DNA of 27,772 bases from Hysterium pulicare CBS 123377 (taxonomy: Eukaryota > Ascomycota > Dothideomycetes > Hysteriales > Hysteriaceae). The stretch spans positions 1 to 27,772 of the forward strand of contig AJFK01000141.1 of NCBI GenBank assembly GCA_000467715.1. Reading direction: 5' to 3'. The notes beneath the pieces were generated by a model. The model did no database searches, was not told the DNA's origin, and worked only from the letters and a program-made list of their open reading frames with translations. Numbering within the stretch: the stretch's first letter is position 1; every line of letters starts with the position of its first letter. Below, in pieces: positions 942 through 26,800 of the stretch. Position numbers and translations under genes: made by a program.

Positions 942-2362
942 CTACCACTCTCTTATCTCACCACCGGGCCCGATAAACCCTGGACTAACCCAAGCCTTCG
1001 CATCTTTCGCCAATTCCCTTACCTGCTTCTCATCAACCTCGATCCCCAACCCCAGCCCTTTCAAGAGATCGATATACCCATCCTTAACCTTCCAGACCTC
1101 AGGATTCAGCAAATAGCTCGTGAGGTCCTGACTCCCAGCATTATAGTGGATCCCGAGACTCATCTCCTGAATCGCAAAATTCGCGCTCACTGCATCAACT
1201 TGCACGTTGGCGGCCAAAGCTATAGGACCAAGGGGACAGTGAGGCGCAAGAGCAACATCATAGGCTTCGCACATGGCTGCTATACGCTTTATCTCCGATA
1301 TACCGCCTACGTGGCTAATATCTGGTTGGAGAATATCCACACATCCAGCTTCGAGAAACGGACGAACATCCCAACGACTATGAAGCCTCTCACCCAGCGC
1401 AATAGGTGAACTCGTCACTTGAGCAAGCGCTTTAATCCCTCCGATATGCTCCGAAAGCAGAGGCTCCTCAATGAAAAGCGGACAATGCGGTTCCAGCGCC
1501 TTCGCCAGTTGCTTGGCCATGGGCTTGTGTACTCGGCCATGGAAGTCAATCCCGGCATCCATACCGAGCGCTTTCACCGCCTTGAGACGCTCGACGCAGT
1601 CGGTGAGTGCGGAGGGAGAATCTAGCCAGCCTAGATCTTCGGTGGCGTTCATCTTTACGGAGAGGAAGCCTTGGGCTTTGCGGGCTTGGGCTTGCTTTTC
1701 TATGTCGCTGGGTCGGTCGCCGCCGATCCAGGCGTAGACTTTTATTTTGTCGCGGAGTTTTCCGCCTAGGAGTTGGTATATTGGTACGCCTAGTTTTCTG
1801 GCTGTTGGAGTGTCAGATCTGATTTACGGTACGTCATATACAATTCGCCAATATCTAGATGTGGACTACTAGATGGGTGCGAACTCGAGAGAATAATTAT
1901 AGAGGTTGTATAACTCGTCACTGACAAGTATGCACACGGAGAACTAGCCCCTAATGCCGTGAAGTAATACAGAGGGGTGTTAGATTCGGAAAGAGAAGTA
2001 ATAATTCAGCCTACCTTTCAGATCCCACAACGCAATATCAATCCCCGCCAAAGCGCTCATAAAAACCGGGCCCCCTCTATAAAAGCTCGTTCGCCATGAC
2101 ATCTGCCAAATATGCTCAATCTCACTGCCAAAAAATTCCTAAGCACACTGAACAACCACACAAAAACAAATCAGGGAAAAACCCACTCAGCTTCGAATCC
2201 AGTGTACTTCTCAATCCAAGCATCTAGACACCCCTCCACAGCCTGCGTATGGCCCTCTAGTGAAGCTTCGCCCCAGCCAGTGTTTCCGGCTTCGTCGGTG
2301 ATTTTGACGAAGAGCCAGCGTGGGGGGACGCGGAAATATTCTATAAGCGCGATTTTGCCCAT
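942..2362 (-). CDS. D-galactonate dehydratase-like enzyme (mandelate racemase/enolase superfamily)
   Basis: Three exons read on the minus strand: 2362-2187, 2124-2015 and 1801-942. The introns are 62 and 213 nt and both GT-AG. The joined protein is 381 aa, essentially the length of E. coli DgoD (382 aa). Expected reaction (family knowledge): Mg-dependent dehydration of an aldonate such as D-galactonate to its 2-keto-3-deoxy acid, in the cytosol. Visible evidence: N-terminal capping domain with [13 protein letters not shown] and SFYRGGP; barrel ligands D181 (DFHGR), E207 (FIEEP) and E233 (GERL); catalytic His pair H183 and H283 (APHCPLGP). These align with DgoD D183/E209/E235/H185/H285 at a constant offset of two. 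[11 protein letters not shown] and MGIHYN are also family motifs. The intron 1 donor (GTGGGT) is weak, but it is the choice that restores [12 protein letters not shown]. It is divergent from an aldolase gene 620 bp away. Substrate could be another sugar acid. Confidence 0.92.
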
Positions 2363-19424: not shown

Positions 19425-20201
19425 CTACGCGCTCACAGTCTCTACTTCCACCTTTGGGAGTGGCGCATTTGTGCCACCCAGATCTGTCTGTCGAGCGTTG
19501 GGGTTCTTTGTGTAGTAGTTCGAAATGGCGGACTTGATAGCGTCTTCGGCAAGCATGGAGCAGTGCACTGCATGAGAACCCATCGTTAGCCATCAGTTCA
19601 AAAACTCTTCTCCTTCCCTTATCGTAGTATCGAACGGATTACTCACGTTTGACAGGTGGCAAGCAAAGCTCCTTCGCGATCTCCGTGTTCCTGATCTTTG
19701 ACGCATCCTCGAGCGTCATACCACGTACCAACTCCGTCAAATAGCTACTGCTCGCAATTGCGCTACCGCAACCGAAAGTCTTGAACTTCACATCGCTGAT
19801 GGTGTTGCTGGACGGGTCGACTCGAATCTGAAGCTTCATGACGTCGCCGCATGCCGGGGCTCCGACGAGTCCAGTGCCGACGTCGGTATCATTCTTTGAC
19901 ATTGAGCCTACGTTTCGAGGCTTGTTGTAGTGGTCGAGCAGTAAAAGTGAAGTTAGCTTGGCGTTCGGACAAAGTATGCGGACATGGCGGAGATCGCAGA
20001 TGTTCATGCAAAATCCATCACGACTCGATCAATAGAAGGCAATGAAAGAAGAGACGACTTATCTTTCTCGTGATAGTTCCTCCGCGCACCATTAACAGCT
20101 GGTGCTGCTGCACGGATTGGAGAAGCGATATTCGGCCGAGCACCCGCGGATAGAAGTCTGCTCGCTTGAGCGGGGGCGACTGTTGCGACTCTCCTGAACA
20201 T
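19425..20201 (-). CDS. ISU1: Mitochondrial iron-sulfur cluster assembly scaffold (IscU/Isu1)
   Basis: Three exons on the minus strand, 20201-20063, 19940-19647 and 19567-19425, encode 191 aa. Isu1 is the mitochondrial matrix scaffold on which Nfs1, frataxin and ferredoxin build the [2Fe-2S] cluster, later released by the Ssq1/Jac1 chaperones. Visible evidence: an Arg/Ala/Ser-rich presequence (FRRVATVAPAQASRLL) ending near RRNYHEK; three cluster-ligand cysteines in GAPACGDV, GCGSAIASS and LHCSMLAEDA; and the LPPVK chaperone-recognition motif just before the last Cys. Start choice: ATG at 20201 opens the presequence. Intron 2 (79 nt) is GT-AG. Intron 1 (122 nt) starts ATAAGT and ends TTTTAC, so it appears to be an AT-AC intron. 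This splice gives the expected HEKVLDHYNKPRNVGS. It belongs to a minus-strand housekeeping block. Confidence 0.95.
19941..20062 (-). other. Non-canonical AT-AC intron in ISU1
   Basis: On the minus strand the intron reads ATAAGT at its 5' end (20062-20057) and TTTTAC at its 3' end (to 19941), with a CTAAC branch site at 19956-19952, about 12 nt before the 3' end. The 5' site matches the U2-type consensus GTAAGT except for the first base, and the branch site is the usual fungal one. It therefore looks like a U2-type AT-AC intron rather than a U12-type one. Confidence 0.75.
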
Positions 20202-20872: not shown

Positions 20873-23523
20873 TTACAAACGCCTGAAGAAATAGACATAT
20901 GCAAACTTTTTCATCTCGTCAACGTCAGCGGCCTTCGCCACCTTTTCATCGTTGAACAAAACCCATGCTGTGGAATTCTCGCCGGGAAGCTGTTTTTGAA
21001 TGAAGGCTACGTAATGTCTGAGATGAAGCGTATTAATAATACTTCTTAAGATTTGTAGGAGGTTCGGGCTTACCCAGCGTGAATTGAACTTCCTTTGTGG
21101 CAAACGATTGACTGTAGCTGGAAGTTGGCTGGTAATTTGTCGCTACCGGGCAGGGACTTCTCCTGTGCTTCTGCGGCAGTCTTGGAGGGATTCTTTAGGC
21201 TCGTTAGCTATGATTGTGGCCGGACTGTCGAGTTAAAATTGAGATGAGCAGGGAGGATCATACCTCAGACTCATTGTTATCATCAAAGTCTCCTGCGGCA
21301 TCTGGATGATTGAACAGCCAGTCAACAGCCCTCTCCATGTCACCGCCGGTTTCCTTTAATGCCTGCCTAGCCTGTGGTGCATTGAAACCCATATTGCACA
21401 GGCCCTCAATCTGCTCGGGATCTACCGCTGAAGAACCGGCACTATTGCCACTGCTAGCATTGAAGTCAACTGGAGCGTCAATATCTGGGTCCTCCATGTG
21501 AGAGAACAGCCAGTTTGATGCTGCTTCTGGGTCTGAATTCCCAGTGGCATGTAGCGCCTTCTCGCATCGAACCCGGGGAAACCCCATCGCCTCCAGCATT
21601 GACAGCGCTGCTTCATTTGGAACCCACTTTGGAGCGCCTCCAGTATCGGCATCCTCAGGGAGGGGTTCTTCATCGTCGCGAAGACCATGAGACTTGTATG
21701 CATCGAAGGAGAATGCCTCGTCACCTACAATGACTGGAACATCTTGCTTTGTAGGAACCCAGTTGACAAGTTCGAATCGACGGGCATTAACGGCAAGAAC
21801 AGCTGGGAATGTCTTAAACAAGCTCCTCTTTATGAAGCCGTCTTTGCTTCCACAAGCAGAACAGGTAAGTTCTACCATCTCATCTGCAGTGAAGATGTCA
21901 AGGCACTCTTTCAAAGTGACAGGCTCGAACTCCTCTTTCTCCCTCTCTTTACCCTCACCATCGGTAACTTCCATGTTTGTATCCTTTGGTATTCTCTTGA
22001 TGGGTACTGGTATGGAGATGTTCTCTTGTTCATCTGTCCGGTATCGCACTTTCTTACAGCCGAGGCACTGCAGACGCTGCTCCATGACGAAGCGGAATGC
22101 CTCGACAGGATCTTTGAGAGGCGAAGGGTGTTGAGATCTTGTGATAAGCTTGAGGAGGTGTAGCAACAACTCGAAAGAGTCTTGCTGACGCATCGTAGAA
22201 AACTCAGCATGGCCTCTTCCAATGAGGTGCTTTAACATCGCTGGAGCCAATCCTTTCTGATGAGGTACTTCTGGCGAATGCTCCGAGACAATTACGTCGC
22301 TATCCGGCCTGGAATAGCGCCCAGAGAGTAGACCATCGGCAACCTTGCGTAACTGCGTCTCAAGGTCTTCGGCTGGAGTAGATGTGGCAGGAGGAGCTTC
22401 CTTTGGTAGGAAATAACGTTCTGAGAATTCTGGCATGGAGAACAAGCTCTGTAGTACGCTGGCTAGGTAGCAGCTGTTGCCCAAGTTCTTCAAGCCAGTA
22501 AAGCCAGCACCAAACAATGGCTTCAACTCTTTGCCATCCCCAGCTGTCATGGAAAACTCCCATAAAAGGTTTTGCTCTACTTGCATCTCCGTCAGACTCT
22601 TCTCCGTCTTGACTCTGTCTTTGATGTTGATGCCCCAATGCGCAAGGTGTGTTGGGAGCTCGGGGTCGATGCGTTCCTCGTCGCAAGCATAGCAGTATAT
22701 ATCCGCAGTACCGTCTGCCGTCAGAGATCCAAGCTTCACGGCTACCGGGTGACCGGACTCCTTCGTATGAGCTACTCCATGGGAGTTTCCACCGATGCCT
22801 CCAAACTGAGAACGCCCGCAGCCAAGATTGCCACAAGTGAGACATAACCACAGGTTCTCGTTGAGATCACACTTGGAGCAATGACCAAGCTTCTGAGACT
22901 CGATATCCCTAGGTGGATCTTGCTCTAAGCACAGCGTGTGTTCGCATGCGGTCAGCTCCTGCTCCCAAGCCTTGACCTCTTCCTGCCGGGCGAATGTATT
23001 TGCCTTCAAGACCGCATCTACGACTTGGGGCAACTTTCCAGAACCCAAGTCTACATTGTCGATACCGCATTCGTAGCATTTCACCTGTGTAGTTGTGTCG
23101 TAGCGGTCCGCTTCCGTTTCTGCGGCAATAGCAAGTTTAGAGATCTTCTGGGGAGGTTCGTCACGCTTGACTTTCTTTCGGATGCGCTTGATGTTCAGGA
23201 CTAAGGGATGGTTGCTAGAGGAAACATGTAGGAGCGAGTGGTTTCTCTCGCCGGTACAACCACCATTGAAGCAGAATAGACAAACGTCGAGCCCGCTCGG
23301 ATCATCCTGGCGGATGGGTGTCAGCCTAGCCTTCTTATTCTGTGCTGGAAGCACCCCGTGAGGAAAACATACTATGGAATCAAAGCATTGTGTACAATCT
23401 TCGCGATAAACGGACTGATTGGTCCCAGGAGGGCGGAGTTCTGAATAATTATGAGCTTGGTCGCATGGGAGCTTCAATCAGGGCGGGGCACTCACCAGGG
23501 GAGTTGACATGCGGGCAGGCCAT
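20873..23523 (-). CDS. UBP14: Ubiquitin carboxyl-terminal hydrolase Ubp14/USP5 family (isopeptidase T)
   Basis: Five exons on the minus strand, 23523-23496, 23440-23373, 23306-21264, 21192-21074 and 21017-20873, encode 800 aa. The enzyme disassembles free polyubiquitin chains, feeding the ubiquitin pool and sparing the proteasome. Domains in order: N-terminal Cys/His-rich variant zinc finger (MACPHV, CTQC, CLFCFNGGC); canonical ZnF-UBP at about 175-250 (CSKCDLNENLWLCLTCGNLGCG); USP catalytic core with Cys box GLKNLGNSCYLAS (Cys311); two UBA domains at about 596-638 and 661-701 inserted in the core; and His box HAGHYVAF (His754) followed by WVLFNDEKVAKA, both reached only by splicing exons 4 and 5. 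All introns are GT-AG. Intron 2 (66 nt) contains no stop and is a multiple of three. Length and domain order match fungal Ubp14. Confidence 0.95.
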
Positions 23524-23833: not shown

Positions 23834-26800
23834 TCAACCCTTCTGCTTTCTTGCATTGATAGACCAGTTTATCCAGTCCGTCAACAAGGTCGGATGCACC
23901 TTCGACTTTGCATCCGCATACCATTCCTTCTGTGTAGCAGAGTACACATCCTCCACCTTCCCGTAATTGCTCTTCTTGAGCGCCACTAAGAGCCTCGCAA
24001 TGAAAAGACTTGACTTGCTGCAGGCAGCACTGTGCATCTTTGATCCGTCTATCTTTGCCTCTGTATGAACATCTTTGAGGATAGTCCAGAGCTCATCTTC
24101 ATCATGTAGCTCTGGAATCTCCTTGTTCTTGCTGCTGGACGCGAAGTATTCTTTCAAGAGGTTAAAGCTTTTTTCAGCAATCTGCCTGCTCGTGTTGCTC
24201 CTGACTCGTCGCAGTACCGGCAGGATGACTTGAAGCGCCAGGGGGTTCGCGTGCTCACTCTTGACATAGATCAATAACAGGTCAAGAACCCGAATCTTAA
24301 AGTTGATGACCGTTGTTTTGGCATCCTTCTTGTCCTTTTTCTTGTTTGCCTCCTTCGTTCTTTCTTGGAAAATCTTTGTGAGGTGCGGGTCTAATGCCAT
24401 CATTTGCTCGTCGTCCATGTCTGAATCCGAGGAGGAAATATCCAATTCTGCTCCCTCATTGGATGTCTTCAACATCTCTGCCAATTTAGCATCAAACTTT
24501 GCTAGTTCTTCATCGTCCGCGTCTTCAATCAAATCAGCGTCCGTCTCACTTCCCTCATCTTGTTCCCTATCTTCATCTTCCTCTGAATCATCTTCGGTTG
24601 GACTGCCAGAGTCTGCTTCAATCATCTCCACATCTGATGCACCTTCAAGATCATCAGTTGAACTTGCGCCGTCTATTTCATCGTCTCCTTGCTCAAACAA
24701 TTCTTGTTGACCTGAAAGGCTTTCTTCCTTATCCAGTATATCGATCATTGAGTTTAAGCCTCCCGACGTAATATCTGCCGTGAATATTGCAAACACCTGA
24801 CCAGCAAGTTTGCGGAATAGGAGAGATGGTTTTGCGAGGAACGTTAAAAGAATCTCAACAAGCATATCAGAACCGTGTTCTGCCGCGTAGTCTTTCTCCT
24901 CGAACATTGTTTTGTAACAGGTGTCAAGCTCGTCTAGCAATACAACAGCATCCGGATCTCCATTGTATACTTGCAGTATAGTGAGAGAGTAAAGAAGAAT
25001 GAATGCCTGCGCGGATGAATTTTTGTTCGATGATGCTTTCTAATAAATTGTAAGTACATGTCCGATGGCAAGCATGAGGACTGTCGTACCTTGGAGGATA
25101 AAGCATCCAACGCGCTATGCGCTTGGTTGAGTGTCTTGAATATCGCCTTGTCCGCATCGAGTGTCAATTGCAATGAAGTTGATTGAATTTTCGACCGAAT
25201 CATTGTCACAATCAAGTACGGAAACGATACCTCTGGTTCTTGTTCGAGAGCCACAAGATGCGTAAGACATGACGATACTTTATCTCTGAACATCGTACGG
25301 CTCGCATCGCTTATTGTAGGTAAGGCTACCTCACTAGTACGCGCGGAATGGGTTGGGGTGAAGTACGCATGCTCGACGATTAAGGCTAGGAGAGTGTGAA
25401 GCCACGTGCCATCTCTTGTTGTTTTGCTGCTAATACTTTGGTGCCCCTTATACCCTTTGACAACATGTAAAAGCATATTTCCGATCATCTGGCGTTGAAA
25501 GTCAACTATTGATTGCTCCTGATTATCGGGACGAAGAATCATGGCCCGGAAATGCTCGACAATCTTCCCTAATGCTTCATCGTTGGCTAATTGTAAGATA
25601 GTTTCTAATGTCTTGGTCTTCGTTAGTTGATCGAAATTTATGCTTCCATGCTTTGACGTTAGCGCGATCATCATCGTAGCTGCCAGCTCTGGTTCGGCTT
25701 TGACTCTAGCCTGAATTGCGTTCAATGAAGTTTTGGCGGAACTATGGAGGAATCGTTCAGAGTCTTTCTGATGATTAATCAAAGATCGCATGAAGTTTGG
25801 ACTGAATAATGCGAGGATAGCCCAATCTGGGACATTTGAAATCAGTCTTGTAAATATTTGAAATCCCCAAGATTTCCGTTCCAGTGAGGCATCTGCGAGG
25901 AAAAGATTTTCTATACGAAATTAGTCAATATAACATCAGATTGTGAATGAAGCTTACCGTCGACGATGTCAATCCAGAACTTAGCAAAGTCAGATTTATC
26001 AGAACGCGATCCATTTGCCTTGCGCTTCTTGGCTTGCTGTTGGATCATGATTGCCATCACAACATCCCATGCGAAGCTCGGACTAGAGTGAGCGGTTGCC
26101 TTGACTTTCTGGGTGCTGTCACCATCCTCGGATGTCGCATGGAAGTTTTCTCTTAGAATGTTCGCAAGAGCCTTTCTCTCATTCCTACTAAGAGGATCTT
26201 TACTGACCCATATATTGCTTGGAAGTATATCCTCCTCTGAGAAGGTTGAGCGAACTGTAAGCCAAATGGCAACGCCCTCGGGAGTTTTGACAATGTTGAA
26301 TGACGATAATCTTTGTAACATTTCGCGAATGTAGACTTGATGTTGAGGCTGGCCATCCATCTTTTGGACGATATCACACAACATCATACCGCATTCTTCA
26401 CGTAGTAGAGGCTTGTCGCGTGCCAATCCGAATATATGATCCAGCAATTTGTTCCAGCATTGAATCGAGGCATTAGGTCTAATGAGAATGGAGGATTGCA
26501 TGATTGCATTGTATCCGAATAGTCTGCCGAGGAGGTGATCTCTCTTTTCCTATTCCAAAGCTTCATTAACTTCATATTATATCAAAACTTAGTACAGTAC
26601 ACGTACCTGACCGGGGACTTTACCCTCTGGCTGCGTTCGTTCAGTAACCAGGTCAATAACGCCATTTGCATCAAGACTCCATCCTTCAATCTGGTCGGTC
26701 TTTGGATCATATGTTTGGCGCAGCAATTCTGTCAGAGCAACGAAAAACCCAAACCGGGCAGCTTTGCGACCACTACAAAGGCCTCTTACTAGTCGAGTCA

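Follow-up and report, generated by a model that had tools for sequence, protein, structure and literature searches.

A probable U2-type AT-AC intron in the ISU1 gene of Hysterium pulicare CBS 123377

The window analyzed here, a stretch of 27,772 nucleotides (nt) of the ascomycete Hysterium pulicare CBS 123377 (contig AJFK01000141.1, positions 1 to 27,772), contains ISU1, the gene for an iron-sulfur (Fe-S) scaffold protein. The first intron of this gene starts with AT and ends with AC, and is very probably of the U2 type, excised by the ordinary (major) spliceosome. We infer its splicing, and the spliceosome that would carry it out, from three things that can be read in the DNA: its sequence, its uniqueness among the excisions that keep the frame open, and its motifs. 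The gene and the elements of its first intron are arranged as follows, a slash marking a splice boundary.

20201 (ATG) to 19425 (end of the stop TAG), minus strand: ISU1 gene, three exons and two introns
20063..20201, minus strand: exon 1, 139 nt, beginning with ATG 20201 and closing with GAG AAA G
19941..20062, minus strand: intron 1, AT-AC, 122 nt, phase 1, the sole YHEKVLDHY-restoring excision of 5,459
20057..20062, minus strand: 5' splice site ATAAGT (context AAG/ATAAGT)
19952..19956, minus strand: branch-site motif CTAAC, with the putative branch A at 19953
19941..19943, minus strand: 3' splice site TAC (context TTTTAC/TG)
19647..19940, minus strand: exon 2, 294 nt, opening with TG CTC GAC at 19940
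19568..19646, minus strand: intron 2, 79 nt, ordinary GT-AG (GTGAGT...GGCTAAC...CAG)
19425..19567, minus strand: exon 3, 143 nt, including the stop TAG

The three exons, once joined, give 576 nt encoding 191 residues and a stop. Exon 1 encodes a presequence-like N-terminus, which may direct the protein to mitochondria, and ends with NYHEK and the first base of a valine codon. The product obtained by AT-AC splicing scored 176.7 bits with the Pfam family NifU_N (PF01592) and 212.7 bits with the IscU equivalog model TIGR01999 of NCBIfam, whose cut-off is 192.4. It aligned with yeast Isu1 (5t0v), its best match, and human ISCU without a gap across the splice junction, and its N-terminal YH-K-V--HY aligned gaplessly with the solved relatives 5t0v, 8tvt, and 6w1d. 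The N-terminal tyrosine of the YHEKVLDHY motif is described, in the part of the source available, as conserved universally and as required for ISCU2 to dimerise (PMC8617193). Judging from its family, the gene product is presumably a normal mitochondrial Isu1 scaffold. A profile search of the assembly (37.2 megabases (Mb), 596 contigs) returned ISU1 as the only NifU_N match, in line with the first-pass annotation, which had called the gene single-copy.

The boundaries of intron 1 were examined by enumeration, limited to one-intron solutions, of all excisions of at least 30 nt after the start codon and before CTCGACCAC; those with an open frame into LDHYNKPRNVGS were kept. Among the 5,459 excisions retained in this way, one restored YHEKVLDHY, the one with AT and AC ends. 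Five excisions of 122 nt, related to one another by shifts of one base, kept YHEK, one residue, and LDHY; the four slides of the AT-AC excision have AG-TT, GA-TA, TA-CT, or AA-TG ends and place L, L, E, or D, respectively, at the position of the valine that follows YHEK in both yeast Isu1 and human ISCU. The other classes of ends behaved differently. Seven open-frame excisions were GT-AG, none of which yielded YHEKVLDHY; four of these kept YHEK but replaced the valine by 19, 20, 30, or 31 residues. Only one of 15 GC-AG excisions kept YHEK, with 24 residues replacing the valine, and among 28 AT-AC excisions, YHEK was kept in 14 and followed by a single residue in one. GT-AG and GC-AG alternatives were thus rejected, as no enumerated single excision with such ends restores YHEKVLDHY. 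In a two-intron solution, any AG acceptor shortly before LDHY (19957) would likewise leave LTSLLL ahead of LDHY.

These results agree with what had been noticed at first sight, namely a phase 1 intron from 20062 to 19941 reading ATAAGT...TTTTAC, followed by an exon 2 that resumes with TG CTC GAC, as the only splice giving the HEK-V start. The GT-AG example that had been offered for comparison, with donor GTGATG and acceptor GCCAAG, indeed inserts 20 residues at the position of the valine.

On the minus strand (20062-19941), the intron reads AAG/ATAAGT...GCTAACTTCACTTTTAC/TG. Its donor differs by one base from AAG/GTAAGT, so that the U2-type donor consensus is present everywhere outside +1. A U2-type branch site, CTAAC, is found where it had been pointed out (19956-19952), its branch A at 19953 lying 12 nt from the last intron base, and GGCTAAC also occurs within intron 2. 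Because the ends of the intron follow from protein homology alone, the TAAGT and CTAAC motifs are independent evidence. Their frequency by chance was estimated in 217,772 bases of the genome (19 ten-kilobase stretches and the window, both strands, intron 1 included), over which a 122-nt box was placed 430,424 times: TAAGT fell at +2..+6 in 275 placements, CTAAC fell 6-30 nt from the box end in 6,230, and both occurred together in four, one of which is intron 1 itself. The hexamer coding scores around the intron (10.9 upstream and 9.4 downstream) shared one phase. When the same sample was scanned for frame and motif together (donors NT[AG]NGT, acceptors YAN), nine GT-AG introns and a single AT-AC intron, that of ISU1, were returned. 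Counts of motifs by donor and acceptor in this sample were too few for any inference.

The AT-AC ends alone would also suit a U12-type intron removed by the minor spliceosome. This alternative is extremely unlikely. The intron 1 donor matches the U12 donor ATATCCTT at three of eight positions, two of them being the AT itself, and [AG]TATCCTT at only one of the six positions from +3 to +8. The U12 branch site TTCCTTAAC is absent from intron 1, where the best match, at TAACTTCAC, reached six of nine bases. The absence of U12-type motifs and the presence of U2-type ones (TAAGT and CTAAC), as initially described, are therefore borne out. In an Rfam search of the assembly, U6 small nuclear RNA (snRNA) gave five matches over the cut-off, and no match was found for U11, U12, U4atac, or U6atac, families for which no control genome gave a signal. 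The suggestion to look for U12 and U11 snRNA genes was thus followed with a negative outcome, which, for want of a positive control, falls short of establishing their absence. In the window, Rfam and tRNA scans gave no match. In agreement with a major spliceosome, a survey of more than 3,000 genomes found, in the text available, convincing minor introns in neither Ascomycota nor Basidiomycota (PMC10639083). Taken together, the U2-type motifs and the outcome of this survey point to the major spliceosome as the likeliest agent.

AT-AC introns can be handled in this way in yeast, from which the U12 spliceosome is said to be absent and in which, when an intron was mutated, only the GT-AG pair was more efficient than AT-AC, according to the accessible part of the same study (PMC6726248). 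In ISU1, the 5' splice site would be recognised via its consensus apart from +1, the branch A within GCTAAC would attack A+1, and the second step would join the exons at C-1, with an A+1/C-1 pair replacing the contact that G+1 and G-1 normally make. The spliced messenger RNA would then encode a normal mitochondrial Isu1 carrying the essential N-terminal tyrosine of YHEKVLDHY. The likeliest origin would be a former GT-AG intron in which G+1 was replaced by A and G-1 by C. For AT-AC splicing by the major spliceosome, PMC6726248 cites Parker and Siliciano (1993) as well as Wu and Krainer (1997).

Stwintrons, in which canonical introns are nested, are known in filamentous fungi. Such an arrangement at intron 1 has next to no probability, since canonical nesting requires a G before exon 2 and the base preceding the homology-defined start of exon 2 is C; a stwintron made of canonical pairs was accordingly ruled out.

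Several observations weigh against an AT-AC intron removed by the major spliceosome, and must be set beside the evidence above. Firstly, excision of a GT-AG intron at 20021-19957 or 20024-19957 would be in frame and free of stops, giving a protein with about 19 extra residues after YHEK, and the product of the 20021-19957 excision passes the IscU cut-off (205.4 versus 192.4 bits). As this product would still be called IscU, the profile models alone do not exclude GT-AG splicing, and it is the conserved YHEKV start that rules it out: 19 or 20 residues would replace one conserved valine. The same product also scored lower than the AT-AC product (166.6 versus 176.7 bits with Pfam NifU_N, 205.4 versus 212.7 bits with NCBIfam iscU), and its match started only at model position 6 (Pfam) or 5 (NCBIfam). 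Moreover, the 65-nt stretch contains no CT[AG]A[CT] branch motif, its acceptor context is CCAAG, and its donor, GTGATG, has no G at +5. GT-AG splicing at these sites is thus highly unlikely.

Secondly, the AT-AC reading comes from a single genome assembly, in which +1, -1, or both could be wrong. An error of this kind, masking a GT-AG or GT-AC intron, would require two separate substitutions falling exactly at +1 and -1 and producing the working A/C pair, and the remainder of ISU1 is open and conserved, so that we consider it very improbable. A search for ISU1 of related fungi gave no match in a set of viral contigs and, in a set of genome contigs, four records titled as bacterial, which were not used. 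The absence of U12-spliceosome RNAs has no positive control behind it, as mentioned above, and minor-spliceosome RNA genes were detected in one fungus, Cutaneotrichosporon oleaginosum, according to the part of the paper available (PMC7072748).

Thirdly, the frame-and-motif scan also returned three GT-AT, three GT-AC, two GT-AA, and one CT-AC pairs; these odd pairs are taken as noise, and the scan alone would not prove an AT-AC intron. Finally, no excess of similar introns was seen in the whole genome when matches to ATAAGT-N28..58-RCTAAC-N4..16-YAC were counted against the reversed pattern, a rough control because its word composition differs. This pattern gave 38 matches (118 reversed), a longer form that recovers intron 1 gave 44 (122 reversed), and an ATRTGT form gave 109 (166 reversed). 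The positive control GTAAGT...RCTAAC...YAG gave 542 matches versus 172 for its reverse. The 38 ATAAGT matches correspond to 35 distinct donors, of which 20, picked by eye and considered with one acceptor each, were inspected for coding flanks in one phase, and none had them; 15 of the donors, 43 longer-form matches, and the 109 ATRTGT matches were left untested. AT-AC introns with strong signals are thus not detectably common in this genome. One AT-AC motif match (C42:22546-22608) overlaps a GT-AG candidate (C42:22562-22613) and shows how chance AT-AC matches arise.

The first-pass annotation had also proposed that the efficiency with which intron 1 is spliced might serve to control Fe-S biogenesis. 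This idea found no support; a neutral double change (G to A at +1 and G to C at -1) explains the sequence equally well. If the intron were retained, the frame of exon 1 would stop at TGA 20006-20004, 19 codons beyond YHEK, and this TGA overlaps the ATG of a second open frame (ATGA, 20004-20007, minus strand):

19639..20007, minus strand: frame beginning at ATG 20007 within intron 1 and open into exon 2, with neither presequence nor YHEKV

The overlap, and the fact that this frame runs into exon 2, could suggest a regulatory switch in which slow AT-AC splicing limits Isu1, or in which retention leads to a presequence-less Isu1 translated from ATG 20007. The product of this frame would nevertheless lack YHEKV, and thereby the N-terminal tyrosine reported as essential for ISCU2 (PMC8617193, as far as available), and, by our estimate, an open frame over about 22 codons easily arises by chance. 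We regard such a switch as very doubtful and the open frame as a coincidence. It seems just as improbable that A+1 and C-1 are maintained by selection in a fungal lineage, whether for slower splicing that sets the level of Isu1 or for retention yielding the presequence-less form from 20007.

A compensatory change in U1, allowing it to pair with A+1, found no support: the one U1 candidate whose 5' end could be read has C at the position which we take, from the usual numbering, to face +1. The search of the assembly for U1 scored 41 of its 639 first-look candidates and gave two matches (43.7 and 43.4 bits), both under the gathering score of 69.5. The candidate with the readable 5' end (L052:1446-1649; contig C300, about 95249-95452; 43.4 bits) has the U1-like loops CTCATGAA and CATTGCAC, whose roles we presume to be those of the U1 loops, and an Sm-like AATTTTTG. 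Its 5' end is split, TATAAA being followed by ATACTC/GTAAGT...ATACTAACATTTTTCAG/ACCTCGTTGGG. The putative intron is a 55-nt GT-AG stretch (ATACTC/GTAAGT...ACTAAC...TTTTTCAG/ACCTCG) inside the sequence that binds 5' splice sites. Removal of these 55 nt gives AUACUCACCUCG, which matches AUACUUACCUGG at 10 of 12 positions, compared with seven of 12 where the unspliced match begins, and in which C replaces U at position 6. This split arrangement did not occur in the 217,772 sampled bases, a weak control given how specific the pattern is. From its sequence, this candidate looks as if it were intron-split within the 5'-splice-site-binding sequence; if real, a U1 RNA, the initiator of splicing, would itself need splicing, and this within the very bases through which it recognises 5' splice sites. 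According to the available text of a 2017 paper, frequent interruption by introns is known, among small structured RNAs, for U3 and U6 alone (PMC5832005), and no intron-split U1 was found in the literature searched. An intact U1 gene may lie elsewhere.

The second U1 match (L051:1501-1639; contig C250:31111-31249; 43.7 bits) has CATTGCAC and Sm-like sites, and no ATACT, donor, or branch motif was found within 300 nt upstream of it; it is possibly a relic. The five U6 matches (contigs C383, C300, C342, C6, and C411; L002-L006) diverge in their flanks and 3' ends, and some of them may be pseudogenes. No 5.8S ribosomal RNA was found in the assembly, from which the ribosomal DNA may be missing. 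Three further genes of the window were recognised with Pfam:

21258-23477, minus strand: ubiquitin hydrolase with zf-UBP, UCH, and UBA
23834-26501, minus strand: DNA polymerase phi-type gene, in three open frames (23834-24940, 24934-25791, and 25911-26501)
942-1652, minus strand: enolase C-terminal-like frame

The AT-AC intron of ISU1 matters for annotation and as a natural example; it brings no new mechanism and no changed view of Fe-S regulation. Gene finders restricted to GT-AG and GC-AG introns would misread ISU1, either losing its presequence or giving this Fe-S scaffold an N-terminus with foreign residues. ISU1 is apparently single-copy, its only plausible protein requires AT-AC splicing, and no minor-spliceosome RNA was found in the assembly; together, these features would make it a clean example, in nature, of the first-base/last-base rule derived from yeast mutants.

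Literature searches on AT-AC, intron, and ISU1, and on ISU1 intron retention, returned no description of this intron. To the question, left unanswered at first sight, of whether it had been described, the reply is thus twofold: the AT-AC class is known in fungi from RNA sequencing (RNA-seq) junctions (PMC4324775, in the part available), and the individual ISU1 intron seems to be undescribed in the literature searched. In the available portions of the respective papers, AT-AC accounts for 69 of 14,305 RNA-seq junctions in Trichoderma longibrachiatum (PMC4324775), is one of several types totalling 0.31% of 2,604 introns in Fusarium graminearum (PMC3577648), and is represented by 13 introns (0.014%), one of them confirmed by Sanger sequencing, in Ganoderma lingzhi (PMC11590231). 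The junctions of these three fungi are supported by RNA, and no ISU1 case appears among them in the same portions. AT-AC is called a minor non-canonical type in fungi (PMC7072748) and reportedly makes up 0.09-5.19% of the used junctions in several pathogenic fungi (PMC6176087), a range whose top suggests mapping artefacts. In two other papers (PMC9495618 and PMC3091305), which were not used, 'AT-AC' occurs within strings of polyketide synthase domains.

Compared with U12-type AT-AC introns, ISU1 intron 1 has the terminal dinucleotides in common but lacks ATATCC and TCCTTAAC, and the four snRNAs concerned were not found, in searches that had no positive control. In Rhizopus (three introns) and Phycomyces (31-32), AT-AC introns are reported which, like that of ISU1, fall outside U12 models, although these fungi differ in that U12 introns are present there too (PMC2846911, as far as available). 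ISU1 intron 1 resembles U2-type AT-AC introns in its AT-AC ends, its AAGT donor tail, and its CTAAC branch site; relative to these, its novelty is confined to the gene and the species, and its splicing is deduced. A close parallel is the AT-AC protointron of SUT635 in S. cerevisiae, which is spliced with the major spliceosome only, according to the accessible text (PMC6726248), whereas the removal of ISU1 intron 1 would be needed to read an essential gene.
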